Assembly: GCA_963682175.1 (NCBI GenBank)
Contig: OY821782.1
Coordinates: 32,385,741-32,449,740 of the forward strand
Direction: 5' to 3'
DNA length: 64,000 nt
Source of the DNA: Triglochin maritima
Lineage: Eukaryota > Streptophyta > Magnoliopsida > Alismatales > Juncaginaceae
The notes below the pieces were generated by a model, which was given only the letters and a program-made list of their open reading frames with translations, made no database searches and had not been told where the DNA came from. A program made the translations under genes and the position numbers. Shown one piece after another: positions 8,362 to 36,157 of this stretch. How positions within the stretch are numbered: the stretch's first letter is position 1; each line of letters begins with the position of its first letter.

Positions 8362-9392
8362 CTCTTTTTTTTAAGAAAGAATGTACGTAGAAGAGAAGAC
8401 GAGGGAACACAGGATAGAAAGAATGACTCAGGAGAGAAGGGAAGAAGTCCTTAAGCTACGGCGGATGGGTACAGGTAGAAGCACACAAGCAAACAAGGCT
8501 CAAACAATCCTAAGGTCGCTATAGGTCCTTACAGCTAGACGACGCCTAACTGCGAGGTCACACGGCCTCAACACGCCTCACCTCCCTACGACGAGGACCA
8601 CAAAGCCCAGCAAGTGAGTCAAGATCTGGAGATCTCGTCTCTCCTACTATCGACAAAGTGGGCAACGCCGATCAGGTCATGACGGTCGGGACCGGATCAC
8701 TCTCCTAATGCGTCCAAGATCCTTAGGGCCAATGTCTACTTGATTTTAAAATTAGGCTCTTGATTAGTGTGGTTTTTGGGGCGAAGGAAAGGGTGATGAA
8801 ATCCCCCACCTTATCTTTTACGGGACAGCCCCTCCTTAGTAGCGTTTTGGAGTCCTAAATCTAGCAATCAACTCTCCAAACAATGCTCAACTCACACTTG
8901 TTGCAATGCACTTCCTACTAACTAATGCATGTTCATACGAAATGCATGAATGAGAGTAGAAGGTGCGTACCTCACGCCAGCTCTCAGCAACAGAAAATAA
9001 AGCTAAGATAATCTAAATGCCTAAGTCACATGATGCATGGCTTAAACAAAAAGAATGCCTAATCTTTTGCTTTGAGTTTTAGGGTCCAAGTTGCTTAAAG
9101 GAGGTTGATTATGGATCTGGGAACAAACTATAAGTCCAAACATGCCAAATTAAATCCCAGATCACTACATCAATTATGAAAACCAACCAAAGAAATACGA
9201 GACAAAACTGAGCTTACCAGACCGCCAATTGGCGGTCTCAGGCCGCTGATTGGCGGTCTTAAATGCTCAGATTCACTCAAAACTTCTCAAGGCGTTCCTC
9301 CTAATGACTCCAAGTCTCCTGAAACAAGGAAAAACTACACAACACAAATTAAATTCACTCGAATCGTCCAAACAAGAGTCTGGACTGGCACC
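8362..9392 (-). other. Element A 5' leader with palindromes
   Basis: About 1 kb between primer site and gag with no convincing ORF. At 9220-9237 lies the perfect palindrome GACCGCCAATTGGCGGTC, and at 9241-9258 a variant. This is the same motif as in this element's LTR, here about 135-175 nt downstream of the primer site. Confidence 0.7.
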
Positions 9393-9410
9393 TCCCCGGC
9401 AACGGCGCCA
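9393..9410 (-). promoter_or_regulatory. Element A primer-binding site, tRNA-Asp
   Basis: Minus strand TGGCGCCGTTGCCGGGGA, complementary to the 3' end of plant tRNA-Asp, separated from the 5' LTR by six bases. Confidence 0.93.
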
Positions 9411-9416
9411 AAAACT

Positions 9417-10809
9417 TGATTGAACGTTTTAATTAAACCGCAAGTGCACGGCCGCGATGAAGCGGTGGCAAGTATGGGTCGTCCTCAGGGAGGTGAGCAG
9501 CCTCTTGCTTGTGCAAAATCAAGTGGAAAAAATAGGGGGAGAACGATGTTTATGCTACTCTACTCTATACTACGCTAAGAAGTACGAAATGTGAAAGAAG
9601 CAAACAAACGATGAAATAAGAACTAAGCTAAGAACAAAACAAGAATGCTGGAATTTCAGGAATGGAAAAACCCCTAAGGGGTGGAGTGAGTGCACACATG
9701 CAAAGAGGTGGGTGTAGAATACATTCTTTAAGCACATGAAGGTGGTGTTTATCAAGCATAGGAAGTGTCTAAATGTTATGGCAAAACCTGTCAATCTATT
9801 CACCAACTTAGTTGATTAACATTTACATATGCAAGATATTTATTTTAGAACCTAAACAAGCATGAGAGGTGTCTAATCATTTTTGGCAAAACTCATCAAG
9901 TCATAAATTCTATCCTAAACAAACAAGCATACATTCATGTTTTATCAACACATCAAAAATAAAAGCATTCATCTCATTCTCTAATGCATGTATGTACATC
10001 TACTCCACCCCCAAAGGGGATGGAACTACTCACTAAACATTACACTAATTATTAAACTAAGCAAAGAAAGCATATTAAAACTAAGCTAGAAATAAAAGAC
10101 GATTAAACTAAAACATGCACAAACAATAAAAGAGGCATAAACAAACGATGAAAGAAACACAAAACTTTATTGATAAAATGACTCACATTAAAAGTAGCAT
10201 CCTCCTAATTTAGTGTGTGCTTCAAGGCCTCACTTCTAGTAGGAGGAATAGCCACTTAAAATATGGAGTGATTACAATGGAAGGTGAAGAGTTCTATTTA
10301 TAGGCATGGAAAAAGCTAATCCGGGACAATCCCCCGATGTGGGACTAAACCAATACCAAAAATACACTAAGCATACACTAATACACGTGCTACAGAAAAC
10401 TAAACGGATTCTGGGCCATCTGGACCGCCAATTGGCGGTCTATATGGTTTAGATCCGTTTGGTTTTCTTTGTGGGCTTTGCTTGAAGTGTTTGTTGGTCT
10501 TGGATGCATCTGGTTGGTTTGTTGGAGCTCCGACCCGAATCCAATTGCTAAAATACTCCCCATGATGGTGTGAAGTATTCTGTTTTGCTCTTAGGTCCTT
10601 CTGTCTTGTGTTCAGGTCCTTCTCCCTTGCATCTTGGTCCCCAGATCTCACAATCCAGTCCTTTTTCCCAGCTTTTGGGTCTTTTTATGCTTCATCTCTT
10701 CAAACCTAATTATTCCTGAAAACTAAACATAAAACTCGTAACATAGCATTGTTTAGGTGAAAGATAATGGATATAAGATACAAATATGAGCATGAAATGA
10801 TGTCAATCA
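9417..10809 (-). repeat. Element A 5' LTR
   Basis: 1393 bp, TGATTG to CAATCA. It carries one palindrome ACCGCCAATTGGCGGT (10424-10439) upstream of the minus-strand TATA. Apart from the missing 21-bp unit and a small number of substitutions it matches the other LTR. Confidence 0.93.
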
Positions 10810-10814
10810 GTGGA

Positions 10815-11135
10815 CAATGACATCGTGGAGTTCCTCGTCTCGAATTACGACGACAAAGAAGAAGGGTTCAAACTTGGCACAAAGTGCTAAGCCTGAAGGT
10901 CTCCGATGTGGTAGTGATATTTGGTCTGCCTATAGGAGAATTTTGCACGACAACTAGCGGATGCAAGTAAAATAAGAGACAACGAAGAGTTCGTGAAGGT
11001 CATGCTCTTTTTGTTGTTCAATAGATTGCTATTCTACGACGGTTCATCCAAAGCAAAGGGATGGTATGTTCCTTTAATCAAAATCCTAGAGGGAATGAGG
11101 AATTATGCAAGGGGGAGATGGTTTTTGAAGAATTG
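10815..11135 (+). pseudogene. Decayed plant-mobile-domain / DUF1985-like ORF, right part
   Basis: Following the target site, the frame reads DIVEFLVSNYDDKEEGFKLG to a stop at 10888. With frame changes it continues LKVSDVVVIFGLPIG (about 10892-10940) and then NEEFVKVMLFLLFNRLLF, GWYVPLIKILEGMRNYARGR (10980-11120). The order 'll..lv..yd..fklg', 'dV..ifGLP.G' and 'FvklllflL' followed by a W-Y-V-P-block is the pattern I associate with plant mobile-domain/DUF1985 proteins carried by plant transposons. The match is by eye only. Multiple stops show it is dead. Confidence 0.42.
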
Positions 11136-11294
11136 ATTATTGGCATTAAAAAGCCAATAGAAATTTGACCAAGAAGAAAAACAAAAACACCACTACAGGC
11201 AAGAGAACGAGCAACATTGACGGTTGTGTAGCGTACTCCAGGTCAGATTTCTATCATATTCTTCTTGTTTTTAAATCGTCCCTCCTGAGACACC
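11136..11294. other. Unassigned flank between element A and element B
   Basis: Short AT-rich stretch continuing past the decayed ORF to the element B target site TCCAT (11295-11299). Nothing recognisable. Confidence 0.4.
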
Positions 11295-11299
11295 TCCAT

Positions 11300-12497
11300 T
11301 GATGCATTGCATACATTGCATCATATGTCTTTCATTTAGATTAATTTTATATCAATAAATGCTACTAAGGTATGTGTTTAGTCTTATTTACATAATGTAG
11401 GGACCTGAATGCAAATTACCCATATCCCGAGCATAAATGCGTGCAAGAGACTCATTCCTGTCATAAAGACCAAGTTCAAGATTATCGGGATTCAAATGGA
11501 AGTTCATCCAAGCATAAAAGCATTCAAGACCTAATTACAAAAAGGACAAAGACTTAAGCACAAAAGGAGTTAGGGACTTAATTGCAAAAAGCCAAGGACC
11601 TAATTGCAAATTACGAGTAGCTTTTATTATTATGGAGAAAGTCTAAAGAAAAATCAATGTGGATCTCCAAATATATAAAGAAATAAAGTCGGAGCTCAAA
11701 AGAAAGGAAAGAATCAATCCAGATTCGCAAAGGAGGATTAAATCATACACACAGCAAAAATCCGGATCCAATCAGAGCATATTGTTCGGCGATTTAGCCG
11801 CAAGTTACATGTATTGTGCGACGATTCCGCCGCACCCCTGTCGATCCGCGCCTCCGAATTTTGTCAAGTCGTGGTGTGACGCGTGTACTTTCCAATTTTA
11901 TACTTAGGTCCCTTGTATCAGCTATAAATAGCCCCGAGAACGATGTTGTGGGGAGTTCTTGTTTTGATTCATTATTTTAGCAATAAAATTCTGTTGGTTT
12001 ATTTTGTGTTTTTACTTTTCTTTCTTAGTTTCTCTAGGACCCCTTCTCCTCCTCTCCATCCATGAGTTTCTAACTCTCTCCAAAGGGTGGGGGTGACGGA
12101 TTTAGGCTGATGAGAAGAAGAATAATGTTATTATTTTAATTTCGTGTTAGTATATTTTGATTACTTGAGTTTATGTTGAATCATTTATCATGTAATGCTT
12201 TATAAGTAATGTGATTTATTATAAGTTTCAGACTTCTCTAATCTAGACCCGATATCTAAACCTCCACCCACTGGACTCCCATCCTTCTTTGCTTTATTTT
12301 TAATTTGCTTTTGTTGTTCTTACTTTAGAAATTAATTAAAAAAATCAAAAATCTCAAACCAAACTTATTTCTCTCTCTCTCTTTCCTTAATCGAAAATCA
12401 CAAAAAATAATAATATCTCTCCCTCCTTGTGTTCGACCCGTACATGTCACGTCTTCATTGACGCCGTGCACTTGCGGTATAAATTTAATTCTCATCA
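11300..12497 (+). repeat. Element B 5' LTR
   Basis: 1198 bp. Palindromic motifs CGGCGATTTAGCCG (11787-11800) and GTGCGACGATTCCGCCGCAC (11816-11835) lie 90-130 bp upstream of the TATA CTATAAATAG (11922-11931). AGCAATAAAATTC, a likely poly(A) signal region, follows at about 11970. Confidence 0.93.
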
Positions 12498-12503
12498 AGT
12501 TTT

Positions 12504-12521
12504 TGGCGCCGTTGCCGGGGA
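12504..12521 (+). promoter_or_regulatory. Element B primer-binding site, tRNA-Asp
   Basis: TGGCGCCGTTGCCGGGGA, six bases after the LTR end. Perfect complement of the tRNA-Asp 3' end. Confidence 0.95.
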
Positions 12522-13889
12522 GGCGACGAAGATTTTGTTTACTTTTGTTGATTTCGATTATATTCTGTTTATCGTGTGCGCGATCTAACTATCTGAGTTT
12601 GCGTTTCAGGAGACAGCATAGTGCGCGGGGCAAACTGAGCACATTTGGAACAAAACGAGCGGCGAAAACGCCGCATCTCAAGAGCAACTTGCGGCGAATC
12701 AGCCGCACACCTGAAGCATCTGAGCTTCAAATTTTTCTGGGACGCAACTCATCTCTGGGTGGACGCTTAGAGCTACTGGAAATTTTCGATAGCGGGCGGC
12801 GAACCCGACTGAGCGTGCTTAGGTAACCTTTGTTGCCTTTTTCATCGTAATTTCTAGTTTCGTAAAATTTCCTTTTCGTAGAACTACACGTGTTAGGCTC
12901 AAATTCCATAATTGGCAATAATTCAACTCTGACCTAAAAATTGGCAAAATTAGAAGGACTTAATGCATGCATCATATAGTGTTTTGTTTGCATTATTTTT
13001 GCTAAATTCTTGCAAATTAATTCTTGTTGAAGAGTGTTGGAGGCAAGGTAAGTGTGCGGTTTTATCGATTGCATTTAAGCATATAAATTAGTTTGCATAC
13101 AACCTTGCAATTGTCCCCCAATTAAAGACCAATGTTTGACTATCTTTGCTAGATTTAAGTTAAACTATCTTAAGGGCAACTCCGTAGGAAAAGATACGCT
13201 GGGGATTTCATCACCCTTCCGTGGCCCACAAATCACAATCCTAAAGCATCACCCAAGCCTTAAAATTAAAATCAATTAGACATTGACCCCTAAGGATTCA
13301 GACTCAATTAAGGAGAAGATTGGTTTGACTTGCTATGACCTGAAGCTGATCGAATTTAATTTGGTGTCTAGAAAGTGTTTTTGTGTTGACGAAAGTCTTC
13401 CAAGCGAAGTGGTTGTCTAATTGACACCGACTATGTCGGAAACGCCCCCATTAGCTATACACTGCCTGGCCAATTTGGTTTCATTAGTGAGGGAGGTGAA
13501 TCAAGCGAATCAATTCGACTCAACCAGTTATGAGTCGTCTAGATTTAAGCGACACTAGGTCTAGGATTGTTTGAACCGTGCTTCCTTAGGAAATTTCTGA
13601 CCGACCCTCTTTTCTATCTTTAGAGTTAAGTTTCCCTTCTCATCTGAGTCTTCTTTCTCTTCTCATCTCAATTCTCTAGATTAGAATTCTTTTCTCATCT
13701 TTCCCCATTTTATTGTTTGTTTCCATTTTTGAAAGAAAAAAAATTTAAAAATTTTTTTAAAAAAATGATTCAAATCGGTGCACTCAGATTTGGATTCGGG
13801 ACTTAAGTAATCGACTCTCACGAGTTCATCTAGATTCCAGTCTGGAGCTTAGCTCCAATCCACCTTTTGCACCACCTCACCCAGATCCA
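12522..13889 (+). other. Element B 5' leader
   Basis: Non-coding leader of 1.37 kb. Two palindromes, GCGGCGAAAACGCCGC (12659-12674) and GCGGCGAATCAGCCGC (12691-12706), begin about 138 nt after the primer site and resemble those in the LTR. The stretch is collinear with the leader of element C (34843-36157), so it is conserved between families although it does not code. Confidence 0.75.
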
Positions 13890-15306
13890 ATGGGTGAGAA
13901 TGTAGTGGAACCGCCTGTTGCACCACCTATGACTCTGATGGATCAGTGCTACCCAACGATGGATGCTCAGCCATCGTGCATCGTTATGCCCGTCATACCG
14001 GGTCGCGACTTCGAACTGAATGCACAATACATGAGTATGTTGCCCAAGTTCACCTCTAGGGAAGACTCATATCTCTTCCTTAGAGAATTTGAGGAAATCT
14101 GCTCTTTTATGCAATACCAGCATATCTCTGAGGAGGCAGTACGTCTGAAATTCGTGCCTCTAGCACTGAAGGACGACGTTAAGAAATGGCTATATAGTCT
14201 AGCCGAAAGATCTATTAGGAGTTGGGCCGAGTTTGTTCAAATTTTTTTAAAGAAATATTTCCCCAACCATAAGACTATTAGGATTAGGAATGAAATTGTT
14301 GCATTCGTTCAATCTGAGAGCGAGCCGTTCTATTCCTATTTAGAAAGATTTAAAAGTCTGTTGACCCAATGCCCTCATCGTGGAATTCCAAGATGGCAAT
14401 TGTGCCAAATTATCTATGAGGGATTGACACCCACATCTAGGGTTATGCTAGAATATGTAAGCCAATGAAGCTTTATGTCCAAAAATGAGAATGATGCCTG
14501 GACTTTTCTTGAGGATTTGCTAAAAACAGTATGCAATGGGACAATGCTAGAGCACCGCTTAACCCGAGTATTGGATCTAGAATAACAAGTCAACCCAAAC
14601 CAGGTGTCTTAGCTGTAGATGTCAATATAGCGGCTGAAGCAAAACTAGCTACCCTTATGCGCAGAATGGAAAGTCTAGAGCTGCAAAACCGACCCCGAGT
14701 GAATCAAGCCTTGTCTATCCCTTGCTTTAGATGTGGTCAGACTGGTCATTTAATGGAGGATTGTGCGGACTGGGAACAAGTTAATGCCACGTTTAAACAT
14801 GCTAGAAATGACCCATACGCATCAACCTATAACTCGGGTTGGCGTAATAATTCCAATTTCTCATCAAGCCAACAAGGTCAACCTCCTAGACAACAACTAA
14901 ACCCGTATAACCAAAATAATACATCATCTGGGTTTAGTAACAATGGAGATTATGATGTTAGATTGACAAGCTTGGAAAATTTGATGAAGACTTTTATACA
15001 AACAACCAACCAGTCCTTCCAAAGGCTAGAGACACAAGTCAGCCAACTCGCACAAATTGTAGGTGCAAGAGAAAAGGGGCAGTTTCCAAGTCAACCTGAG
15101 GTGAATCCTAGATCTAATAATCAATATCAGCCCTATCAACCACCTCTAGGAAGTAACAACTCGAGACCAGTTCAAATGGTTAATGAGGAAGGACCGTTCC
15201 AACAAATAAATGCAGTAGTATAATTACGGTCTGGAAGACAAGTTGATAACAATGTGGTAAATCTTAAAACATCTAATCAATCTAGCAATCAAGCAACCAC
15301 ATATGA
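13890..15306 (+). pseudogene. gag: Element B gag, with stops and a frameshift
   Basis: Starts at ATG 13890 (MGENVVEPPVAPPM), aligning with an internal Met of the element C gag. It contains the gag core (FLREFEEICSFMQYQHI, FLKKYFPNHKTIRIRNE, SYLERFKSLLTQCPH) and a full zinc knuckle CFRCGQTGHLMEDC. A TGA at 14466-14468 replaces a Gly codon of C. A 1-nt loss at about 14515 moves the frame, which continues from 14531. A TAA at 15221-15223 precedes the tail. The solo LTR at 15307 separates gag from protease. Confidence 0.88.
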
Positions 15307-16717
15307 TGTTGAACGTTTTATTTAAACCGCAAGTGCACGGCCGCGATGAAGCGGTGGCAAGTATGGGTCGTCCTCAGGGAGGTGAGCAGCCTCTTGTTTA
15401 TCAGAAATCAAGTGGCAAAATAGGGAAGAGAAAGATTGATTATGCTAACCTACGCTACACTACGCTAAGAAGTATGAAATGTGAAAGAAGCAAACAAACG
15501 ATGAAATAAGAACTAAGCTAAGACCAAAACAAGAATGCTGGAATTTCAGGAATGGAAAACCCCTAAGGGGTGGAGTGAGTGCACACATGCAAAGAGGTGG
15601 GTGTAGAATACATTCTTTAAGCACATGAAGGTGGTGTTTATCAAGCATAGGAAGTGTCTAAATGTTATGACAAAACTTATCAATCTATTCACCAACTTGG
15701 TTGATTAACATTTACATATGTAAGTTGTTTATTTCAGAACCTAAACAAGCATGAGAGGTGTCTAATCATTTTGGCAAAACTCATCAAGTTATAAATTCTA
15801 TCCTAAACAAGCAAGCATACATTCATGTTTAATCAACACATTGAAATTAAAGCATTCATCCCATTCTCTAATGCATGTATGTACATCTACTCCACCCCCA
15901 AAGGGGATGGAACTACTCACTAAACATTAGACTAATTATTAAACTAAGCAAAGAAAGCATATTAAAACTAAGCTAGAAATGAAAGACGATTAAACTAAAA
16001 CATGCACAAACTATAAAAGAAGCATAAACAAACAATGAAAGAAACACAAAACTTTATTGATAAAATGACTCACATTAAAAGTAGCATCCTCCTACTTTAG
16101 TGTGTGCTTCAAGGCCTCACTTCTAGTAGGAAGAATAGCCACTTAAAATATGGAGTGATTACAAAAGGAGGTGAAGAGTTCTATTTATAGGCATGAAAAA
16201 AGCTAATCCGGGACAATCCCCCGATGTGGGACTAAACCAACACCAAAAATAGCCTAAACGAACATTAATACAAGTCTAGGAGAAATTTGAGCGCATTTGG
16301 GCCAAAATGGACCGCCAATTAGCGGTCTTGGACCGCTAATTAGCGGTCTACAGTGTCTGGATCTCTCTGGAATTTCTTGTGGGCTTTTCGGGAAGGCTTT
16401 GTTGGTATTTAATGCATCTATTTTGCATGTTGGAGCTCCGACCCGAATAGAATTGCCAAAATACTCCCCATGATGGTGAGGAGTATTCTATTTTGCTCTT
16501 AGGTCCTTCGGTCTTGCATTCAGGTCCTTCTTCCTTGCATCTTGGTCCACAGATCTCACAATTCAGTCCTTTTTCCCAGCTTTTGGGTCCTTTTATGCTT
16601 CATCTCTTCAAACCTATTTATTCCTGAAAACTAAACATAAAACTCGTAACGTAGCATTATTTAGGTGAAAGATAATTGATATAAGATACAAATATGAGCA
16701 TGAAATGATGTCAATCA
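15307..16717 (-). mobile_element. Solo LTR of family A inside element B
   Basis: 1411 bp, beginning TGTTGAACG (TGATTG in element A) and ending CAATCA, flanked by TATGA at 15302-15306 and 16718-16722. It carries two palindromes of the form ACCGC(C/T)AATTAGCGGT near 16311-16347. No internal sequence remains, so the element was removed by LTR-LTR recombination. It inserted after B did. Confidence 0.93.
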
Positions 16718-16722
16718 TATGA

Positions 16723-17731
16723 CCTAACCATTGAACCTGACGTCCAATCTGAAACGCCCAACCCACCTACTCAACCTGAACCCATAGCTCAACCTGAGCG
16801 AGTCTATGTTCCTAAAGCTCCATTCCCCAATAGACTTAAGAAGAACTCAAGTGCACAAATGGAGAAAATCCTGGAATTATTTAAGCAAGTTAAGGTGAAT
16901 ATTCCACTCCTGGATATGATTCAACAAATACCTGCTTATGCTAAATTCTTAAAAGATCTGTGCACTAAAAAGAGAAAAACAAATGTACCAAAGAAGGCTT
17001 TCTTAACTGCAAACATAAGCTCTATTCTGTCCAACTTATCTCCTATAAAATATAAGGACCCCGGGTGTCGCACAATTTCATGTGCAATAGGAGATACTTT
17101 TATCAACAAAGCTCTTTTAGACCTTGGTGCTAGTGTTAACCTACTCCCGTTCTCTGTCTACGAGCAACTCAACCTTGATCCACTAAAACCCTCTAAGACA
17201 ACTCTTCAATTTGCTGACTGCTCTATTAAGAAACCAAGAGGTGTAGTCGAGGACGTTTTGATCAAGGTGGGTGACTTCATTTACCCAGTGGATTTTGTCG
17301 TACTAGATACTGCACCTGTTGTAAATCCTAATAGACAAATCCCTGTAATACTAGGCAGACCCTTTTTAGCCACTTCTGAAGCATTGATAAACTGTCGAAA
17401 TGGGCTCATGCAATTATCTTTTGGGAACTTAAAAGCTGAATTTAATATCTTTCATGTTGATAGTGAGCGAGAAATAATATGCAATCAAAGTGATGTTGTG
17501 ATGAGAGCACGTATCTATAAGATTTCTGAATCAAATAAATCATCACAAAATCAAAAAGAAAGTGCGAAAAAGGGGAGTAAGTCATCTACCCAACCACAAT
17601 CACTCGAACAAACAAGAGAATCAATACATGTGAGAGGTGTGGAACCTTTACCTCAGGGCAACATGGGGAACAATTCAACTGGATACATGCACCAACATGG
17701 TGACATTCAATCCAGTTCTGATTATGGTTGA
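16723..17731 (+). pseudogene. pro: Element B protease region, end of gag-pro
   Basis: Open from the insertion site, with a clear frame from 16859. It has the linker MEKILELFKQVKVNIPLLD, then the protease with LLDLGASVNLLPFSVYEQL and VILGRPFLATSEALINCRNG, then a Ser/Gln-rich tail ending at 17731. It is in the same phase as the second gag segment, so gag-pro was one polyprotein before the solo LTR entered. No RT follows. The domain itself has no stop. Confidence 0.85.
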
Positions 17732-18864
17732 CTCTGAACAAATTCCATCCCTCCACCGCATTTCACCCAGGTAATAAGTGCATTTGCTTTATATTTGCAT
17801 ACATTGAGGACAATGCATGATGTAGGTGTGGGGGGGTGTTTATCTATATATCTATATATTCTATTACTTTTGTTGTTTTTGTTCCTTATTATATAGTTCT
17901 GCTTGTAGAAGAAAAAAAATCAATATTCCATGACATAGCTTAAGATTGAACCGCCAAAACCCGTGTACAAAATGCATTAAGTTTTTGTTCCTTATTATAT
18001 AGTTTTGCTTGTAGAAATTATGACATAAATCTAAGTTCCAAAGAAATAACCCATTACCCTTTAAGCATGTATGCACTTAAATTGGATGAATCAAATCTTT
18101 GAAGTGGTTGATAAAAAGCAGAGGTTGTGGAAAATATACCGGGAAGTGTGGACTTCTAATAGCAATTAAGCCTTGAGGAAAATAAAAGTAAAAAAATAAA
18201 TTAAATAAAGGAATAAAGTGAGGAAAACACATTTTGCAAAATGATTACAAAAGCCCAAGCCTTAGAGTCACTGGTCCGTAGGTGTATCTTAAAACCCGGT
18301 AACTTGAGTCTGCCAGCTCGAGATTATCGACCAAACTCGCTACACGAATGCAAAAAGGGTAAAAGTGTCAAAAAAGCCAACATGTTGAATAACGGGAAAA
18401 AAAATACTTTAAGATACTCAATGCCCAAAGCTAAAAGAATGATCCATGCCATGGTTGATCCGAATGATACTTCACTACCAGAGGAGGCGTGCAAAATAAT
18501 TTAAGTGATAACATGTGTAGAAGGGTTAATGGTGTGAATGTGGGAGGAACAAAGACCAAGTCAGATTCTTTATGAGTTAGACTTATATAATAAGCATGCA
18601 AGAATTCTAAGTAAGATGTATAAGGTTGATGTGGAGATATTGAGAGCTATTAATGAAATGTTGAATTAAGACTTTGTGGGTGTGTCAACTGAAAACCCTC
18701 ACGAGACAAAACTCGTCCTCTAAGGAAACTTCGGGGTTTAAAGGCTTGTTGCACATGCTAAGTGCAACCGTAATTCCTACAAAAGTGAGTTAGGATTTCC
18801 CTGTTTTCATTTTCCTTATATTCTGTTTTGCTAGGGACTAGCAAAATCTAGGTGTGGGGGTATT
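17732..18864 (+). other. Element B 3' non-coding region and polypurine tracts
   Basis: No gene. A conserved block at 17802-17838 (CATTGAGGACAATGCATGA then GTAGGTGTGGGGGGGTG) lies about 1.03 kb before the 3' LTR. The LTR-adjacent polypurine tract AGGTGTGGGGGTATT is at 18850-18864. The sequence between is collinear with 42774-43757 of element C. The 87-codon ORF at 18241 lies in this conserved non-coding part and is not supported. Confidence 0.75.
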
Positions 18865-20061
18865 TGATGCATTGCATACATTGCATCATATGTCTTTCAT
18901 TTAGATTAATTTTATATCAATAAATGCTACTAAGATATGTGTTTAGTCTTATTTACAGAATATAGGGACCTGAATGCAAATTACCCATATCATGAGCATA
19001 AATGCGTGCAAGAGACTCATTCCTGTCATTAAGACCAAGTTCAAGATTATCGGGATTCAAATGGAAGTTCATCCAAGCATAAAAGCATTCAAGACCTAAT
19101 TACAAAAAGGACAAGGACTTAAGCACAAAAGGAGTTAGGGACTTAATTGCAAAAAGCCAAGGACCTAATTGCAAATTACGAGTAGCTTTTATTATTATGA
19201 GAAAGTCTAAAGAAAAATCAATGTGGATCTCCAAATATATAAAGAAATAAAGTCGGAGCTCAAAAGAAAGGAAAGAATCAATCCAGATTCGCAAAGGAGG
19301 ATTAAATCATACACACAGCAAAAATCCGGATCTAATCAGAGCATGTTGTTCGGCGATTTAGCCGCAAGTTACATGTATTGTGCGACGATTCCGCCGCACC
19401 CCTGTCGATCCGTGCCTCCGAATTTTGTCAAGTCGTGGTGTGACGCGTGTACTTTCCAATTTTATACTTAGGTCCCTTGTATCAGCTATAAATAGCCCCG
19501 AGAACGATGTTGTGGGGAGTTCTTGTTTTGATTCATTATTTTAGCAATAAAATTCTGTTGGTTTATTTTGTGTTTTTACTTTTCTTTCTTAGTTTCTCTA
19601 GGACCCCTTCTCCTCCTCTCCATCCATGAGTTTCTAACTCTCTTCAAAGGGTGGGGGTGACAGATTTAGGGGGATGAGAAGAAGAATAATGTTATTATTT
19701 TAATTTCGTGTTAGTATATTGTGATTACTTGAGTTTATGTTGAATCATTTATCATGTAGTGCTTTATAACTAATGTGATTTATTATAAGTTTCAGACTTC
19801 TCTAATCTAAACCCGATATCTAAACATCCACCCACTGGACTCTCATCCTTCTTTGCTTTATTTTTAATTTGCTTTTGTTGTTCTTGCTTTAGAAATTAAT
19901 TAAAAAAATCAAAAATCTCAAACCAAACTTATTTCTCTTCCTCTCTTTCCTTAATCGAAAATCACAAAAAATAACAATATCTCTCCCTCCTTGTGTTCGA
20001 CCCGTACTTGCCACGTCTTCATTGACGTCGTGCACTTGCGGTATAAATTTAATTCTCATCA
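18865..20061 (+). repeat. Element B 3' LTR
   Basis: 1197 bp, same ends as the 5' LTR, followed by TSD TCCAT. Same palindromes and TATA. Confidence 0.93.
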
Positions 20062-20066
20062 TCCAT

Positions 20067-24436: not shown

Positions 24437-24441
24437 ATAGC

Positions 24442-25661
24442 TGATGGGAATTAAATTTATACCGCAAGTGCACGGCGTCAAAGAAGACGTGGCAAATACG
24501 GGTCGAACACAAGGAGGGAGAGATTTGTTATTAGTGTGATTTCGATTTGGGGAAAGAAGGAGAGAAGAAATAAATTGGGTTTTGAGATTTTTGATTTTTA
24601 ATTTCCTAAAGCATGAAACATGAACAAATAAAACTAAAGCAAGAACAAAGAAGTGAATTCCGTTGGGTGGAGGTTTAGATTTAGGGTTTAGATTAGAGAA
24701 GTCAGAAACTTATAATAAATCATGTTAGTTATGAAGCATTACATGATAAATGATTTAACATAAACTCAAGTAATCAAAATATACTAATCACGAACTTAAA
24801 ATAATAACATTTATTCTCTTCTCTTCACCCTAGATCCGTCACCTCCACCCTTTGGAAAGAGTTAGAAACTCATGGAGGGAGGAAGAAGGGGTCCTAGAGG
24901 CATTACAAAAGAAAAGTAAAACAAGAAATAAAAGACAGAATTTTATTACTAAAATAAAGACAAATAAAAACAACTAAAAACTAGGTCTAAGGCCAAGGAC
25001 CCTTCTAACATCGTTCTCAGGGCTATTTATAGTTGTTACAAGACACCTAAGTATAGAATTGGAGAGTACACGTGTCCAGACACGACTGGACAAAATTGGA
25101 GCACACGGATCGCCAAGGGGGCGGCGTTTCCGCCGCACAATGCATGTAATATGCGGCGATTTCGCCGCATAATCTCCTCCGATTTAATCCGGATTTTTGT
25201 TGTGTGTTTATGGTATGATTTGATCCTCCTTTGCGCGTCTGGATTGATTCTTTCCATTCTTTTGAGCTCCGGATTAATTCCTTCATGTATTTGGAGATCC
25301 ACATTGATTTTTCTTTAGATTTTCTCCAAGATAATAAAAGCTACTCGTGATTTGCAATTAGGTCCTTGTCTTTTTGCAATTAAGTTCCCGACTACTTTTG
25401 TGCTCAAGTCCTTGTTCTTTTTGTAATTAGGTCTTGATTGCTTTTATGCTTGGATACATTTACATTTGAAACCCGATAATCTTGAGCTTGGTCTTTATGA
25501 TAGAAATGAGTCTTTTGCACGCGTTTATGCTCGGGATGTGGGTAAATTGCATTCAGGTCCCTGTATTCTGTAAATAAGACTAAACACATACCTTAGTAGC
25601 ATTTATTGATATAAAAGTAGTCTAAATGAAAGACATATGATGCAATGTATGCAATGCATCA
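24442..25661 (-). mobile_element. Solo LTR of family B inside element D gag
   Basis: 1220 bp, reverse orientation of the element B LTR (TGATGGGAATT at left, GCATCA at right), with ATAGC duplicated at 24437-24441 and 25662-25666. It carries GCGGCG palindromes (about 25122-25165) as in B. Only one LTR and no interior. Confidence 0.93.
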
Positions 25662-25666
25662 ATAGC

Positions 25667-25879: not shown

Positions 25880-25916
25880 GTTAATTTATCGGTTAAGAAC
25901 AAAATTAACGAACGAG

Positions 25917-25928
25917 GCTCTGATACCA
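25917..25928 (-). promoter_or_regulatory. Element D primer-binding site, tRNA-Met
   Basis: Minus strand TGGTATCAGAGC, the standard Ty1/copia primer site, two bases from the LTR end. Confidence 0.92.
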
Positions 25929-25930
25929 AA

Positions 25931-27398: not shown

Positions 27399-28597
27399 AT
27401 GTGTGCTATAGAATACTCCATCCGAAACTAGAAAAGCTTGTATGGGTACCTAGATTGTACCTAGTATACCAAGTCAGTCAGGACTTCTTAGGAGGAGATT
27501 AACGAATGTGGGTCTGAAGACACACTAACAACGCCAACATATGGTGTCGACACTTTTTAGATGTCACAGTTGCATGGTGTCGATACTTTGTAAAGTATTG
27601 ACTTTTTTCCTTTTAACTTTAGGGGTCATTTTGATATTTCCCCCCATTAGCTTAATTATATTTGGAGTTCTCTAACCCTAGGTTTTGTTTTGCCCCCTTT
27701 TGGTGGTGAATAGAGTATGGGTGGAGGAGAGAAAAAGACCTCACTGGATGGTCACCGGAGCTTGAGGAGCCTCACCGGAGCTAGTCGTTGGTTCACCAAA
27801 GCTCATTGGGAAGTTTCATCGGAGTTTATATCAAGTTTGGAGAGGAGTTTGTCGGGTTCTCTCCTAAGGTATACCTAGGGCTCACTAGAGTCAACCTCTT
27901 CTTGGTTTCTTGATTCAAAGGAATAGATCTTAAAGAAGCTTTGGAAGTTCTTATACCTTGGATTTCAAGTTGAGAATGGGTTCTAGCTTAGTAAAATGAA
28001 GACTTGGTTTTGGTGGTCGATTTTCTTATCAAGTAAATATGCAAGAGAGGTAATGACGTTGGAATCCATGGGATGACCTTTACATGTTTTTTCTTTGTGA
28101 GTTTTGTGGATGAGAGGAGACATAACAACCACATCGTGTTCTTTGTTTGGAACGACACCATTAGCATGGAGTTTAAGCCTTTTGGTCCATCTGACCCTTG
28201 TGTGTTGATTTTGTGTTGTGTATGCATTTGGATCTTGGTTTTAGACTTTGATTGGGTTGGATTTGATAAACCATTCAGCCTTAGTTGATGACCTTTAGTT
28301 TTTCCAACATTTAAACGATAGGTGTAGCTATGCTTTGTAATCCACTTTTCGTTTGCTAACAAGGAAGCCTGTGTAAGTAGATTGTCTATGTAACTTAGTT
28401 TGCTTAATATGCACAAGTCTTGACTTATGAAGATAACTTGTTTTGCCTTCAATTAACTCAATCCAATAGACTATGTGAGTAATGACCAAACTCATGTCCA
28501 TATGGAACCTATTTTAATCTACCACTCTTGACTTCGTGCAACAACTTCATGATAAAACATGTTAAAGAAGTCTTTAAGTGCTTAAGTTACAAAAGTT
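27399..28597. other. Unassigned DNA between elements D and J
   Basis: No supported gene. A short piece near 27430 translates to a W-V-P-R motif like the gag tail of Sireviruses and may be retroelement debris. CACCGGAGCT-type words recur at 27750-27830. The ORFs at 27988-28452 and 28073-28288 overlap on opposite strands without family features. Confidence 0.4.
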
Positions 28598-28602
28598 GCA
28601 AT

Positions 28603-30736
28603 TGTAGGATTTCATGTTTAATTACACATATATATTTTCGAATTTTTCTATGTATAATAACGATCAATTACAATTTTCTACGATTTATTTCATGCATGTA
28701 TCGGTTTGTTTTAATAACTAGTTTCAAAAACATATTAAAACAAACACAAGGGACTCCGAAATTCATACCTAGAAGTTCTCTAAAACTTCTTGATGTTCCA
28801 GAGACGTTGAGGAAGACGATCATCGCTTCTCGTTGCGCCGGATGCCTCCGAGTGTTCACCGAAACCCTAAACAAGGTTGGAGAGAAAGGAGCTAGCCAAT
28901 CAATCTCCAAACTAGCTTAGAATCTAGCTACAAACCCCTTCCTTAATCTCTGAGATTTCTCCTTCCAAAGACTTAGAAAACTAAGAGAATTTTCATGGAT
29001 TTTTGTGGTGAATTAGAAGAGAAAATATTTAGCAAACTTCTAACATAATTAAGGAGAATAATGACCTATTTATAGGCTCCAATCTTACTCTCAATCATGG
29101 CTATTCTTAAGCCAAGTTCTCTTGACATTTTCTCTCACAAACTAATTCAATAATTCATTACATGCATCCACAAAACGTTTGACCAAGTTTGGAGCTAATC
29201 CAACCATCGATCAATTTAATCTCTTAATTATCAATGGCAGAAAATCGATCGGGCTTCGGTTTACCGAGACATACTCGGTTAACCGAATACGTCACGTTCG
29301 TATTACTGTGCACTTGACGGATGACCGATTCTTAAGGATAAAAATTCTCCTTAACCGATCGGACGAATTCTCGTCTAAGACCGAGTGCCATTCAGTTAAC
29401 CGAAAATATCGGAACTGGACATTGTTCGGTCGACCGTTTCTGGTTCGGTACACCGTACCAGAGTTCCATGCACTTTGGTCAAGTTCGGTCAATCAACTAT
29501 GACTATCCGTTCCACGTTCGGTTGACCGATCCATAGATCCTTCGGTCGACCGAACCATAACGAATTACCGAACTTTTACCCGATTTTGCCTTTTCAAAAT
29601 TTGGATTTATTTCCAACAAAATTTGAACTTTTGGGGTTTTCAGCAAATTCACAACTTATGCAATATATTATCCTATGCAATAATAAATTATTGCACCCCA
29701 TAATATATGCATCTCATATGAATTTATCATGATTCTAATTATGTTATATACAACATAATTGATTTTACTTGTTCACCACATGTGTCATATTTTCCATAAG
29801 AAACCCGACACATCATATGAACCAAAAATCAAGCTTCTTGTTTCCTGGTTTTTGCGGTGTGACCTATGGGATGATCTAGACTAAGTTGGCAGTGATATTA
29901 ACAGCTTAATATCACAAGCTATAAGCGGTATCTAGCTACACATTATAGCTCCCAATTAGTTAGATGTCTTAATTCCACTCGAACCAAAACCCGATCCATT
30001 TAGTGATGGAGTGCACCACTTGTGTCCGTCCCTTGCCTCATGATATTAAGAATACACACAAAGTAGTATTGTGTCATCTTTGTGTTAGTATTCATTTCTT
30101 GATCTCTTTAAACTACTTATAAATATGTGACTTAACTCAAATCACATTGTGCACATTATAACTTTGCTTTATCAAGGAGCCCACTAATATCATCACTCAA
30201 TTAAGAGGGGCAATGATAATCTTTTGACTAACTATCTTCTCCAACAAAAGTCATACTTAACCAACCAATGCCTTTACACTACACTCATCGACAGCTCAAG
30301 ACACTAGTCTAATTAAGCAATTCTTAAGTGATCGGATATAAGTCTCATATCAAAGAACCAAAGACATAGTAAAACATTAATGACACAGAAAACACAATTC
30401 TATAATGTTTTACTTATTAGGTCTATTCAGTATACAAAAGTAATATTTTCCTCTTTTGTGTACCCGTGTTGTCACTCACTTGCAGAGCTACAATGATCTA
30501 TGACCAACACGACAATCTTAACTCGGTAATTAATGTCCCACGTTAATTACCATGATTGCGAATATCTTTTGTTTTATGTAAACCAATAACTTTTAGAGCT
30601 CTACGATTAAGGACCAAGAGCCTCTTCCTTAACACTTCTAAAAGACGAATAACATAAACAAGGAACAAAATGATTTCTCATTCAATTCATAATAATTGGC
30701 ATTTAAAAGTAAAACTTTTAGAACACATTCCCCTCA
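28603..30736 (-). mobile_element. Solo LTR J, long copia-type LTR
   Basis: 2134 bp, reading TGTAGGATTTCATG at left and ending CCCCTCA at right (element sense starts TGAGGGGAATGTG). Flanks GCAAT (28598-28602) and GCACT (30737-30741) match at 4 of 5 bases, an aged TSD. CGGT-NN-ACCG palindromes (29250-29560) lie upstream on the minus strand of the TATA within CCTATAAATAGG (29076-29065). The plus-strand ORF at 28528-28920 lies in its transcribed half and is not supported as a gene. Confidence 0.75.
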
Positions 30737-30800
30737 GCACTTGCACTGGTTTATTTTCTTTTGATTAGAACTATATATTATTAATTTTATATTATGAAAG

Positions 30801-31706
30801 TAGGGGTGTCAACGGATATGATATAGGTATATCCATATTCGTATCCGCATGAAATTTACGGTTTCAGATACGGATATGGATTGTTTGTTGATATGAAAAG
30901 TCTATATCTGTTCTGATATTTGACAGATTCAGAGCAGATACGACTAATATCTGCGTCCGCAAACATAATTCCCCACCTTATAACATTTTTCATTTTCACT
31001 TAGACAAATTCTTATACGTAGTCACATTTATAACTTTATTTGTTTCAAATATTAATTTACTTTATCTTAACTTCTAACTCCATATTCTGAAAATCATAAC
31101 AATATTCAATGCTTGATTAAATGTGTTCAGCAGATGTATTTTTATTTGAATAAATAAATTTAAACTATATATTCAAAATATAATCACACAAGGTTGAAAT
31201 ATGAATACTTCTAGGTATAATAATGTATTGCATAAGTATATGATACAAATATGGATACGGATGTTGAAATACAAATATGTAGTTCTGAAGTGGATATTAT
31301 TCGGATCGGATACAACAATATCCATATTCACCCCTCAAATTGATGGATATTCCATTCTGGATACGAACACGGATTTTGGATATAATTTTTTCCATATTAA
31401 GTTACAATTAATTTCCAACTATTTACAAATTATAAAATTTTAATAAATATATACACATATATGTTATGTATGATATTGAGAGAATATGGATACATATACG
31501 GATATGGATACAGATCTTATAATACAGATATTCAATCTCGGATTGGATGTTATACGGATCACATGTATCAAAATCTATATTCGCTCCGCGACTTCCCGAA
31601 TATCATGTTTTGGATACGAATACGATTTTATGGATGATGGATTCTCGGATAAAATGAATACGACCCAGACGGATTCTCAGATTTCAGACATCCACTGACA
31701 CCCCTA
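30801..31706. mobile_element. Non-autonomous hAT DNA transposon
   Basis: 906 bp. The ends are TAGGGGTGTCAACGGAT and, inverted, TAGGGGTGTCAGTGGAT (15 of 17 matching), the usual plant hAT terminus. A perfect 8-bp target duplication TATGAAAG is at 30793-30800 and 31707-31714, the length made by hAT transposases. Inside are dense subterminal repeats of GGATA(T/C)GGATA in both orientations and no transposase frame. It needs a transposase from elsewhere. Confidence 0.93.
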
Positions 31707-31714
31707 TATGAAAG

Positions 31715-33049
31715 TGAAGGTCACTCAACAATGATTCACATGAACCAAAATTGGTCGTTTTCTCTTCTTCAACATTGCACCTAGTATCATTTGTCATCTT
31801 GAATTTCAATTATTTTGTAATTTATATGCTCACAACCGTATATTTTTAACATTTGTATAGTGACTTCAAAGCATGAACTTTGATGAACTTGCTTCTTCAA
31901 CACTGCACCAATTACAATTTATTCAATATGAAGTCGATAATACTAATAAAAATACACGAATTACAAATACGATGATTAAAACAAACTTACAAATTTACAA
32001 GATTCTTTAAGGATTCCATTGGTTTAGTCAACCCAAAGGATCAAACCAATATGCTGAATTAGTTTCGGGGCATAGAACGACAAGCATCCAATGAGCTATG
32101 TTTATATATAATTAGAAGTTTATTACGAAATCAAATTCCACTTACTTTGAATTAACAAATTTACCTATCATTATAAGGGATCGGATAATATCTTTTGCCT
32201 TCTTCCTTCATCATATTTTGCAAACTTGCTACCAGTCTTTTTTGTTTTTGTTTTAAACATGCTAGTAGAGGATAAACTCCATAAAACCCCTTTCTAAGAA
32301 ATGAAACATTTGCAACGCGACCTCCTGTTCACAAGTTAGATTTGATACAGAAACAATGATGTACGAAACTACACTTCAGATTCAACACACATATGGGCCA
32401 TCTCAAGAAGTAGTTCAATTACTGGTCAAAGAGTTTAAAGTTCAAACACTTAAGATCAGGCTGAGCTCAACCTATTACGCTCCAAAACCAAATAACAACC
32501 AATTCAATCCTCAAACATGCAAAATTACAATCTTGGAGAAAGTGAGAGTTACCCTAACGTTGAGGTTGTCGAAGGCGTCAGCGTGGCTGTGTTGTTAGAA
32601 GACAAAATTAATCAATTAATGTGCCTTATGAAAAACAAAAACATAGTCATGGAGTGCGAGGAACATCACTTTAGAAAACACAAAACATAAAAAATGTAGG
32701 AAAGAAAGAAAGAAAAAACAGACGAGGATTTTGGCGACGAGGGAGTGGGATGTCATGTTCACAAGTCACGGAGGAGAGGGAGTGGGGCGACTTCGATGAC
32801 CTAATCACAAGTCACAGAAGTGGTGTTTTGGTCAGAGAACGGACCGGTCGTGGAAGGGTGAAGGAGGGGGGTCTTGGAGGAGGGTGATCGAAGTCGTGGA
32901 GGTGGTTGTGGTGGCGGAGGAAGTCGTAGAGGTGCTTTTTTGGTCGGAGGAGAATGGTCACCGACTAGGGTTTAGTCGTGGAGGTTTTGTTGGAATAAAT
33001 GAAAAAAACAAAATAACCACGTTCTCGGAGGAAAATGAGATCATGTTCA
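31715..33049. other. Unassigned DNA, AT-rich then G-rich
   Basis: No gene supported. From 32690 to 32990 there is a purine-rich stretch with GTCACGGAGGAG and GTCGTGGAGG words. The 80-codon ORF at 32356 shows no family features. Confidence 0.4.
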
Positions 33050-33054
33050 ACCAA

Positions 33055-33165
33055 TAGACGTCGGTTGTAGTGTATGACCGACGTCTATGGGTCGACGTCT
33101 ATGGGGTGGAAAATAATCGTTGGGGTATAGACGTTGGTTAAAATGGGTACTCAACAACCGACGTC
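33055..33165. repeat. TAGACGTCGG repeat array, possible CACTA subterminal region, left part
   Basis: Repeats of (A)TAGACGTCGG and its reverse CCGACGTCTAT, with TTGTAGTG at 33065-33072, which would be the inverted CACTACAA end of a CACTA (En/Spm) transposon. The array continues beyond LTR E at 45994-46190. No transposase is visible. CACTA assignment is inference from the motif style. Confidence 0.4.
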
Positions 33166-33554
33166 TAAAGTGTTGGCTTTTTGGCCTTAATCTATGTTTT
33201 GATGATTTAATCAACCTAATCTTAATTGTGATCATGTAGAGTAGCACACATGTTGCATTGCATATATTTCTTTATGCTAACCTCTACAGGTGATCAAGAC
33301 TCAAGAAAGAAAGGAAATCAAGTCAAGACATGTAATCAAGCTCATTTGAAGACATGTAATTTGTTTTTTTTAGTCTTAGGAACTTTGTGTAATTAAGCAT
33401 ACTTGAGCTAAAAATACTCAAACACACACTACGTTCCCTATAGAAGTCACACACGGAATTTCATATAATTTGGACTTCAATAGATCACCCAAACTTAGAC
33501 TGGAAAACACTAAACCAAAACCTAAACAGTCTGCCCACATTCGTATTATCTCCA

Positions 33555-34818
33555 TGATGCATTGCATACATTGCATCATATGTCTTTCATTTAGATTGTT
33601 TTTATATAAATAAATGATACTAAGGTATTGTTTTGAGCAATTATGCAGCATTCAGGAGTTACAATGCAATTTACCAATATTCGAGCTAAATCGCTTGCAA
33701 TGGACTCAGATGGATCACAAAGACCAATTAGCTAGAGATTCAAGCTCAAGTTGAAGTCCAATTGATTGCATAAGAAGCCAGGGACCTGATCGCACATTAG
33801 AAGAACTAAAAAGTTATTTTGGAGGAGTATTCAAGAAGAAATCAAATTCGGATCTCCAAAGATATGCAATAATTGATTTATACGCGTGGAGGTCACCTAC
33901 AACATACCAAAAACACACCCGCAAAAGCACAAATTAATCTGGAGCATCCATGCGGCGATTCCGCCGCATCTGACGATCAATGTGCAGCGGAATCGCCGCA
34001 TGGGTTGCGATCCCTGCCTCCTATTTTCGTCCAATTGTGTAATAACACGTGTCCTTCCTGATGCATACTTAGGGTTTCTTGTATCGGCTATAAATAGCCC
34101 CGAAATATTGTTGTAAGAGGAACTTTGTATTTCCATTCTATAAGCAATAAAATTCTGCCCTTTTATTTCTCCATTGTCTTTGTCTTTTGTAAGCTTAGTT
34201 TTAGATTAATGTTTCATGTTCTTAATTCCAGTAGAGTAATTTAGTTGTTCTTTATTCTTCTCTTAGAATAATTTGTTGCATGCTTAGAATAATTGAATTT
34301 GTTTTCGTAGATCGTAGTTTAGTATAATACTTCTTTTTTTCGTAGTCTCTCGATGATCTCCATGACCCCTTCTCCTCATCTTCTCCCCATGGGTTTCTAA
34401 AACCATCCAAAGGGTGGGGGTGACGGATTTAGGGTTAGAGAAGAGAGATCGTTTTTATTTTAATTTCTTGTTAGTGTTTTGATCATATGAGTTTTTGTTA
34501 AATCAATTATCATATGATGCTTAATATCTCACTTGATTTATAATAATTTTCGTGATCTCTAATCTAACTCAAAGATTCATAACTCCCACCCGTTGGACTC
34601 ATCCTTATTTGTTTCTTCTTAGTTTTTGTTTTTGTTTTTGTTGTTCTTGCTTTAGAAAAATTAAAAATCCAAAAATCTCAAACCAACCCTATTTCTCTCT
34701 TTCTTTCCTTAATCAAAAATCACAAAAAGATAAGAATCTCTCCCTCCTTGTGTTCGACCCGTACTTGCATCGTCTTCATCGACGCCGTGCAGTTGCGGTA
34801 TAAATAAAAATCTCAACA
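33555..34818 (+). repeat. Element C 5' LTR
   Basis: 1264 bp. Palindromes TGCGGCGATTCCGCCGCA (33951-33968) and TGCAGCGGAATCGCCGCA (33983-34000) lie about 90-140 bp upstream of the TATA CTATAAATAG (34088-34097). AGCAATAAAATTC near 34142 resembles a poly(A) signal region. Confidence 0.94.
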
Positions 34819-34824
34819 AGTTTT

Positions 34825-34842
34825 TGGCGCCGTTGCCGGGGA
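34825..34842 (+). promoter_or_regulatory. Element C primer-binding site, tRNA-Asp
   Basis: TGGCGCCGTTGCCGGGGA, six bases after the LTR end. Confidence 0.95.
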
Positions 34843-36157
34843 GGCGACGAGAATTTCAAGTTTTTTTGTGATTTTTGTTTGTTTTGTTTGGATCTTGTTT
34901 TTTCGCGATCTAACGTTTTCTCTGTGCTTTTTAGGAAGTATTAGAGACGACGCAAAAATCCGGACGCAATCCAAGCTGACCAAGTGGCGACATCGCCGCT
35001 CCAGAAGTGTAGTTTGAGGCGGAACGCCGCACGGGTTGGACATCTGGGTGTGCAATTTTTCTGAGACGCGACTCATCTCTAGGTGGACGTGTAGAGCACT
35101 GGAAATTTTCGAGAGCGGGCGGCAAACCCGACTGAGCGTGTGTAGGTAACCTTTGTTGCCTTTTCCTCGTAATTTCCATCTTCGGAAAATTTCCTTTTGG
35201 GTAGAATTTCATGTGTAGGGCAAACTTCCATAATTGGCACTAATTCAACTTGTGACCTAAAATTTTGCAAAATTAGAAAGGCCTTAGTGCATGCATCATT
35301 TAGAGATTTTCTCGCATTATGCATGCTAAATTTTGCAAATCAATTCATTGTTGAAGAGTACTGGAGGCAAGGTACGTGCGCGGTTTTTATCGATTGCATT
35401 TAAGCATATAATTTAGTTTGCATACAACCTTACAATTGTCCCCCACTAAAGACCAATGTTTGACTATCTTTGCTAGATTTAAGTTAAACTATCTTAAGAG
35501 CAACTCCGTAGGAAAAGATATGGTGGGGATTTCATCACCCTTCCGTGGCCCACAAATAACAATCCCAAAGTGTCACCCAAGCCTTAATTTAAAATCAATT
35601 AGACATTGGCCCTAAGGATTCAGACTTAATTAAGGAGAAGATTAGTTTGACTTGCTATGACTTGAAGCTGATCGAATTTAATTTGGTGTCTAGAAAGTGT
35701 TTTTGTGTTGACGTAAGTCTTCTAAGCGAAGTGGTTGTCTAATTGGCACCGACTCTGTCGGAAGCGCCCCCACTAGCTATACACGGCCTGGCCAATTTGG
35801 TTTGATTAGTGAGGGAGGTGAATCAAGCGAATCAATTCGACTCAACCAGTTAGGAGTCGTCTAGACTTAAGCTACACTAGGTCTAGGATTGTTTGAACTG
35901 TGCTTGTTTAGGAAACTTCTGACCAACCCTCTCATCTATCTTTTAGAGTTAAGTTTCCCTTCTCATCTGAGTCTTCTTTCTCTTCTCACCTCAATTCTCT
36001 AGATTAAGATTCCTTTCTCATCTTTTCCCCTTCTATTGTTTGTTTCCATTTTTGAAAGAAAAAAATTATTACAAAAAAAATAAAAAATAAAAAACCAATT
36101 GATTCTTGAATTTGAAATTTAAATTTCGAATTTGAATTCAAAAATTAATTCAAACCG
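34843..36157 (+). other. Element C 5' leader
   Basis: Non-coding, collinear with the leader of element B. Palindromes of the LTR type are at 34983-35000 (AGTGGCGACATCGCCGCT) and about 35015-35030 (AGGCGGAACGCCGCA), starting 141 nt after the primer site. The small ORFs here are not shared with B and are rejected. Confidence 0.75.

Follow-up and report, generated by a model that had tools for sequence, protein, structure and literature searches.

In a 64-kb window of Triglochin maritima contig OY821782.1 (the whole stretch of DNA that was analysed, out of a 1.06-Gb genome in 167 contigs), nested long terminal repeat (LTR) retrotransposons, here named elements A, B, and C, carry GC-rich palindromes, or dyads, at two sites: in the unique 3' (U3) region of the LTR, upstream of the TATA box, and in the leader, downstream of the primer binding site. 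At both sites the dyads come as tandem pairs of fixed spacing, and the two sites of an element carry the same type. With a probability of about 0.6, these pairs belong to a duplicated module of double-stranded DNA recognized by a symmetric protein, whose sites would lie two or three helical turns apart; this reading draws on conserved half-sites with a loose middle, on pairs at two or three turns, on their phase relative to the TATA box, and on fixed flank lengths. In most elements an ancestral module of ~140-150 bp would be present twice, once in U3 ahead of TATA and once in the leader, ~160 bp from the primer site. Each copy would contain two symmetric protein sites, two turns (type A) or three turns (type B) apart, and be followed in many cases, 30 bp past the second dyad, by an AAATTT box. 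The candidate reader is a protein that binds DNA as a symmetric unit, probably a dimeric host transcription factor, acting on duplex DNA at both modules; the promoter in the LTR and the beginning of the transcribed region might be held by the same factor for activation, for looping, or as a shield against silencing.

Paired Dyads in the Window

The window was scanned for stems with 6-bp arms, at least five G/C, and a loop of 3-8, overlapping entries being counted separately. This yielded 22 entries versus 1.4 under block-wise Markov resampling, 21 of them in the LTRs or leaders of elements A, B, and C and their close relatives (the exception is at 39405), and no A- or B-type dyad was found outside LTRs and leaders among the listed stems. 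The palindromes named in an earlier, sequence-only reading of this DNA are all present where it placed them (Table 1), and the leader copy starts, as it had noted, 135 (A), 138 (B), and 141 (C) nt beyond the last base of the primer site. That reading spoke of family-specific palindromes in three families; since B and C form one family group, being 84-88% identical over long stretches and having a single leader cluster, the dyads are of two types and not three. Type A is GACCGC-N6-GCGGTC and type B is GCGGCG-N4-CGCCGC. The centres of type A dyads are 21 bp apart in the U3 of the 3' LTR, in the third LTR copy, and in the leader, and those of type B are 32 bp apart in the U3 and leader of B, in the U3 of C, and in a related minus-strand LTR. 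The leader pair of C, with an imperfect second dyad and a 3-nt spacer, measures ~31.5 bp between centres.

Element A has one dyad, or one 21-bp unit, fewer in its 5' LTR (10423-10440) than in its 3' LTR (3205-3243), which is consistent with slippage across tandem dyads.

Dyads in the Genome Sample

Exact matches to the 18-nt primer site number 9,560 genome-wide (4,759 and 4,801 by strand). The sample consisted of 80 loci among the first 100 sites listed, all of them on one contig (C1) and chosen by the primer site alone; each locus extended from 2,000 nt before the primer site to 700 nt after it, positions were counted from the start of the primer site, and expectations came from local Markov resampling. 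A GC-rich inverted repeat occurs at +145 to +205 in the leader of 71 of the 80 loci, where 2.0 are expected, and in U3 such repeats cluster at -900 to -600 (52 loci, 1.9 expected) and at -1250 to -980 (19 loci, 1.1 expected). Elsewhere they are rare: they occur at -600 to 0 in none of the 80 loci (0.9 expected), at +18 to +145 in 1 of 80 (2.0 expected), and at +205 to +700 in 1 of 80 (3.2 expected). The prediction that other members would possess the leader copy and its spacing is thus borne out by nearly all sampled loci.

When up to three arm mismatches are allowed, type B is found in both leader and U3 in 57 loci, six of which have an extra weak A match in U3, and type A is found at both sites in 18 loci, one of them with a weak B match. 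The type therefore agrees in all 75 loci having dyads in both leader and U3, although these do not represent 75 independent events, because the elements of each type form a cluster of relatives. Type A is confined to U3 in L016 and L074 and type B in L031, while L037 has type B in the leader only and L084 has dyads at neither site; the leaders of L016, L031, and L037 read as interrupted by other sequence.

As to other plants, a search of viral_contigs returned no relative. Two records with the same primer site, L087 (BMWJ01000030.1) and L088 (NZ_JABGCI010000027.1), are filed as Streptomyces clavifer and Blastococcus endophyticus, respectively, but their plant-type primer site and LTR-like sequence indicate that they are probably plant contamination; neither shows an A- or B-type dyad in the sequence covered, which for L088 extends just 1.1 kb upstream. 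On its LTR side, L088 shows a repeated palindrome, TCTCTCCA-ct-TGGAGAGA, at -594 and -362 from the primer site.

Spacing, Promoter Distance, and Length Constraint

Across the 80 loci, neighbouring B dyads are 32 bp apart in 55 of 56 leader pairs, the other pair being at 34 bp, and in 56 of 59 U3 pairs, the rest being 410-746 bp apart. Neighbouring A dyads are 21 bp apart in all 16 leader pairs and in 14 of 17 U3 pairs, the rest lying at 157-420 bp. Genome-wide, perfect B pairs with a gap of 2-31 bases (a spacing of 18-47 bp) occur at 6,379 places, and among the places listed (50 distinct, all on C1) the spacing is exactly 32 bp; perfect B pairs spaced 33-62 bp number 13 in the whole genome (six at 33, four at 34, and one each at 37, 39, and 55 bp). 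The exact type A palindrome, GACCGCCAATTGGCGGTC, has 14,237 genome occurrences, and in four loci examined it stands 129 or 150 bp before TATA (three loci) or 182 bp past the start of the primer site (one locus).

Distances to the promoter were taken for U3 dyads that have no more than two mismatches and are followed by a TATAAA[TA]A within 260 bp, others being dropped, which left 148 dyads from the 80 loci and the three window elements. Type B dyads lie 97 bp (55 cases) or 129 bp (54) before TATA and type A dyads 129 bp (18) or 150 bp (12), so that 139 of the 148 fall at one of these three distances and the other nine are off by 1-2 bp. Expressed in helical phase, 97, 129, and 150 bp leave 0.24, 0.29, and 0.29 of a 10.5-bp turn. 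The position in the leader is similarly constant, with the centre of the first dyad at +159 to +163 in 50 of the 54 B loci that have two leader dyads and at +160 to +162 in all 18 A loci.

Length constraint was assessed in the 53 B loci having both pairs, as intervals between anchors. The interval that contains the U3 dyads and TATA has a single length, 189 bp, in 39 of the 42 loci with both anchors, and the one that contains the leader dyads has a single length, 143 bp, in 38 of 40 loci. Nine of the 12 other intervals of at least 28 bp vary, with 0.5-2.7 indels per 100 bp, and the remaining three are near-invariant: a 93-bp interval just upstream in U3 (0.13), a 37-bp interval near the LTR end (0), and a 30-bp leader interval (0). 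A coding cause for the fixed leader length was rejected, as each of the three frames contains stops (42, 44, and 35 of the 53 loci). Between distinct copies, arm identity is 0.946 in the leader (n = 36) and 0.914 in U3 (n = 37), versus 0.723 and 0.494 for loops and 0.621 and 0.530 for linkers, respectively.

Origin of the Two Modules

The likeness between the modules extends beyond the dyads. With the dyads removed and used as anchors, the flanks of the four groups (A and B, leader and U3) are alike in register in six of six pairings and on both sides, 0-94 of 5,000 column shuffles being as good. An AAATTT starts exactly 30 bp past the centre of the second dyad in 11 of 17 leader and 5 of 14 U3 modules of type A and in 27 of 56 leader and 15 of 57 U3 modules of type B; AAATTT is present in 207 of 2,490 tiles of 67 nt. 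In a tree of 101 distinct B modules, 49 leader and 52 U3 copies separate with no exception (local support 0.933), and between U3 and leader the identity is 0.93 for arms, 0.45 for loops, and 0.46 for linkers. Judging from these sequence comparisons, the modules in U3 and leader are paralogues of long standing, in which the half-sites are conserved and the lengths fixed.

All four groups also stay apart in flank trees. With 64 rows (B represented by the first 18 distinct copies of each kind), a grouping of the leaders together is favoured (95/86), with alternatives that are not rejected (approximately unbiased (AU) test, p 0.16), and with 125 rows no order of duplication and A/B split stands out (92/20; AU 0.46 and 0.52, one alternative being slightly better). 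A single early duplication seems the simpler reading because positions and register correspond, and it is this correspondence of positions, and not the tree, that suggests a concerted change in which dyad type and spacing would have shifted together in U3 and leader.

Ongoing gene conversion between U3 and leader was considered and rejected, since loops and linkers are 0.421 identical within elements and 0.417 between elements (716 of 2,000 permutations as high) and the leader and U3 modules separate without exception in the tree. In six loci (L020, L032, L033, L035, L078, and L083) the U3 linkers are leader-like at 13-14 of 16 positions, above other U3 copies, and a small exchange of patches between leader and U3 is possible there.

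Proposed Function and Alternative Explanations

The sequence-only reading had offered RNA dimerisation, packaging, 5'-3' contact, or a shared DNA-binding site as functions of the two copies. The last of these fits best, with good support at the sequence level: the spacing is 21 or 32 bp, the distance to TATA is 97, 129, or 150 bp, and the half-sites are conserved, changes of partner bases being mostly uncompensated. The three RNA functions gained little support. We infer from these features the binding to DNA, the kind of protein that would perform it, and any effect on transcription.

Palindromes downstream of the primer site serve retroviruses as dimerisation and packaging signals, and the leader dyads sit where such signals lie; they could act as two RNA hairpins, placed between the primer site and gag, for dimerisation or packaging of the genomic RNA, with the U3 pair having a promoter role of its own. 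However, in contrast to the retroviral signals, no covariation was detected here and the same module is also present upstream of TATA. Among 36 distinct B leader modules, 97.5% of the base-pair cells pair and both sides have changed in 1 of 432, a covariation not clearly beyond chance (32 of 500 shuffles as high) in a test of little power, given that the arms vary so little. Cells departing from the common pair are compensated in one case, G-T in 11, and broken in 11 in the B leader, and compensated in one, G-T in 14, and broken in 27 in B U3. Type A dyads keep mismatched inner bases, namely C-A in the first leader dyad (13 of 16 distinct copies) and T-G in the second U3 dyad (11 of 12). Moreover, leader hairpins alone would leave the U3-like spacing, the AAATTT register, the fixed length, and the shared type unexplained, and such a role is unlikely as the whole account.

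Several observations count against the DNA module, some of them in favour of these leader hairpins. Leader folding, a check proposed in the sequence-only reading, gave z of -5.5 (A), -2.9 (B), and -1.7 (C), the A leader folding much better than shuffles and the B leader better. In B leader arms C-to-T exceeds G-to-A by 12 to 5 (binomial p 0.14), versus 15 to 15 in U3 (Fisher p 0.23), and this lean, a weak hint, is in the direction that RNA pairing would tolerate; as the leader is transcribed, an RNA role there is conceivable beside one in DNA. The case for helical phasing has few independent values behind it (21, 32, and the TATA distances), low indel numbers in young families could keep the spacing fixed, and the length test on A loci had few usable anchors and gave a table too messy to use. 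A freer local search of the flanks placed only B leader versus B U3 above the null, in the left flank, and the flank trees do not settle whether the duplication came before or after the A/B split. Type A half-sites, GCGGTC when read outward, differ from the LBD-box discussed below and have the opposite orientation. Lastly, the positive material comes from one genome and the sample from one contig, and two loci of that sample depart from the pattern: L074 has a type A U3 dyad with an unrelated, dyad-free leader, being perhaps a derivative element with a swapped internal region, and L084, which belongs to another family, is dyad-free at both sites.

A 5'-3' contact within the genomic RNA through complementary leader and U3 hairpins is very improbable. 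The arms are complementary by construction, and the commonest first loops, GAAT in the leader and ATTC in U3, are complementary as well; nevertheless, the reverse-complement loop match is 0.534 within elements versus 0.545 when shuffled (749 of 1,000 as good), and leader and U3 loops are uncorrelated within elements, whether compared on the same strand or as reverse complements, on which ground kissing loops were rejected. The check for co-variation between U3 and leader that the sequence-only reading had proposed gave a negative result for loops and linkers, and variation in the arms is too small for it. Nor does passive inheritance from one old duplication, the dyads being alike because little time has passed, appear at all likely: U3 and leader copies are indeed paralogues, yet their arms are 0.93 identical with loops and linkers at 0.45 and 0.46, and this even though the arms are rich in CG, which mutates fast when methylated.

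There is a small chance that the leader copy serves as a boundary or insulator, by analogy with the Su(Hw) cluster of Drosophila gypsy, and that the U3 copy pairs with it via the same protein. Clustered sites for one DNA-binding protein are known in the gypsy leader from the available text on that insulator (PMC2374998), but each module here has just two sites. Slightly less improbable, and still doubtful, is an address code of the element itself, in which a lineage-specific and perhaps element-encoded protein would read type and spacing at promoter and leader and tie both together; a change of specificity between the A and B lineages would then have shifted type and spacing at both sites at once, a suggestion that stems from the corresponding site positions in the two lineages. 

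Comparison with Known Systems

The nearest known system, as far as the available text of the sources goes, is that of the LTR palindromes of Sireviruses. According to the accessible parts of the report on Sirevirus RM in Ty1/copia elements (PMC2829016), these are family-specific palindromes upstream of TATA, with a CGG-CCG core in 12 of 13 listed elements and at least eight copies per element, and a second internal set occurs in elements with an env gene, mostly before env. The dyads described here are similar in lying upstream of TATA in U3 and in having a second internal set. In the core, type B has CGG then CCG and type A CCG then CGG. They differ in that their hosts read as Ty3/gypsy-type and not Ty1/copia, in having few dyads, namely one or two in an LTR and, as a rule, two in a leader, and in that the internal pair is in the leader, not before env, with a spacing fixed at 21 or 32 bp; the primer site also differs from the Met-type 9-mer given for Sireviruses in the accessible text (PMC2829016). 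The palindromic regions of maize Sirevirus LTRs have an excess of mapped small RNAs, as stated in the available part of PMC10760457, citing Bousios 2016. In both cases the LTR palindromes could fold as RNA, and the leader copy and the spacing are additional here.

Regarding the candidate protein, GCGGCG is the LBD-box, to which dimers of LOB-domain (LBD) proteins bind, and dimerisation of LBD proteins serves cooperative binding and palindrome discrimination (PMC10118128, available text), LBD dimers favouring two motifs with a spacer (PMC12461856, likewise in part). Perfect type B dyads are inverted pairs of GCGGCG and, thus, a candidate site. The Su(Hw) insulator of Drosophila gypsy, for its part, comprises 12 sites in 340 bp of the 5' untranslated region. 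Both systems have a cluster of protein sites, predicted ones here, in a gypsy leader, but the Su(Hw) consensus differs and a matching U3 copy is not mentioned in the accessible text (PMC2374998). To judge by the same partial sources, the two-site, fixed-phase arrangement is in none of Sirevirus RM, the LTR small-RNA targets, and the gypsy insulator, and leader palindromes in Athila-type elements are unnamed in the titles and abstract openings of the open-licence papers listed.

Elements and Other Features of the Window

The names Ty3/gypsy and Athila are our assignment, based on protein domains, on a primer site of tRNA-Asp type, and on an additional open reading frame (ORF) in C. A domain scan found RVT_1 and RT_RNaseH in an ORF of C only, which we take to be of the kind found in Ty3 elements, and an aspartyl protease domain in the scanned ORFs of A and B. 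The C ORF at 41823-42695 has a sub-threshold match to PF20167 (21.2 bits versus a cut-off of 45). The primer site is 18 nt long and presumably matches tRNA-Asp, the primer of the Athila lineage.

In several leaders, a pyrimidine stretch ending in CAGGAG precedes the dyads at ~+95 to +105 (A and B; the region of 12604 in the window) and resembles a splice acceptor. At 57532-62263, long open frames resemble Ty1/copia gag and pol when read by eye.

Table 1. Positions of LTRs, primer binding sites, and dyads in the window
Feature	Position	Strand	Remarks
Element A 5' LTR	9417..10809	-	97.2% identity to 2199-3612
Element A 3' LTR	2199..3612	-	pairs with 9417-10809
Third A LTR copy	15305-16724		inside element B
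Element B 5' LTR	11299..12497	+	97.7% to 3' LTR
Element B 3' LTR	18864-20061	+	
Element C 5' LTR	33555..34818	+	97.9% to 3' LTR
Element C 3' LTR	43758-45015	+	
B/C-related LTR	24442-25663	-	
A primer binding site, tRNA-Asp type	9393..9410	-	
B primer binding site	12504..12521	+	
C primer binding site	34825..34842	+	
A-type U3 dyad, single, 5' LTR	10423..10440	-	TATA at 10302, 129 bp from centre
A-type U3 dyad pair, 3' LTR	3205..3243	-	centres 21 bp apart
A-type leader dyad pair	9220..9258	-	centres 21 bp apart
A-type dyad pair, third A LTR copy	16310..16348	-	centres 21 bp apart
B-type U3 dyad pair, 5' LTR of B, imperfect	11786..11833	+	32 bp; TATA at 11923
B-type leader dyad pair of B	12659..12707	+	centres 32 bp apart
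B-type U3 dyad pair, 3' LTR of B	19350..19397	+	first dyad read from sequence
B-type dyad pair, related minus-strand LTR	25121..25168	-	centres 32 bp apart
B-type U3 dyad pair, 5' LTR of C	33951..34000	+	32 bp; TATA at 34089
B-type leader dyad pair of C	34983..35031	+	second imperfect, spacer 3, ~31.5
B-type U3 dyad pair, 3' LTR of C	44154..44203	+	centres 32 bp apart

Implications for Plant Retrotransposons

Palindromic LTR arrays in plants were described earlier for the Ty1/copia Sireviruses, and the dyads reported here are a stricter, gypsy-type version that has a leader copy, holds its helical spacing constant, and repeats one dyad type in U3 and leader. This arrangement makes the choice between a DNA site and an RNA structure directly testable, and a single genome provides thousands of natural variants for the purpose, with 6,379 perfect B pairs and 14,237 exact type A palindromes. 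Should the dyads prove to be read by a host factor, for instance an LBD protein, retrotransposon promoters would be tied to a family of plant developmental regulators.

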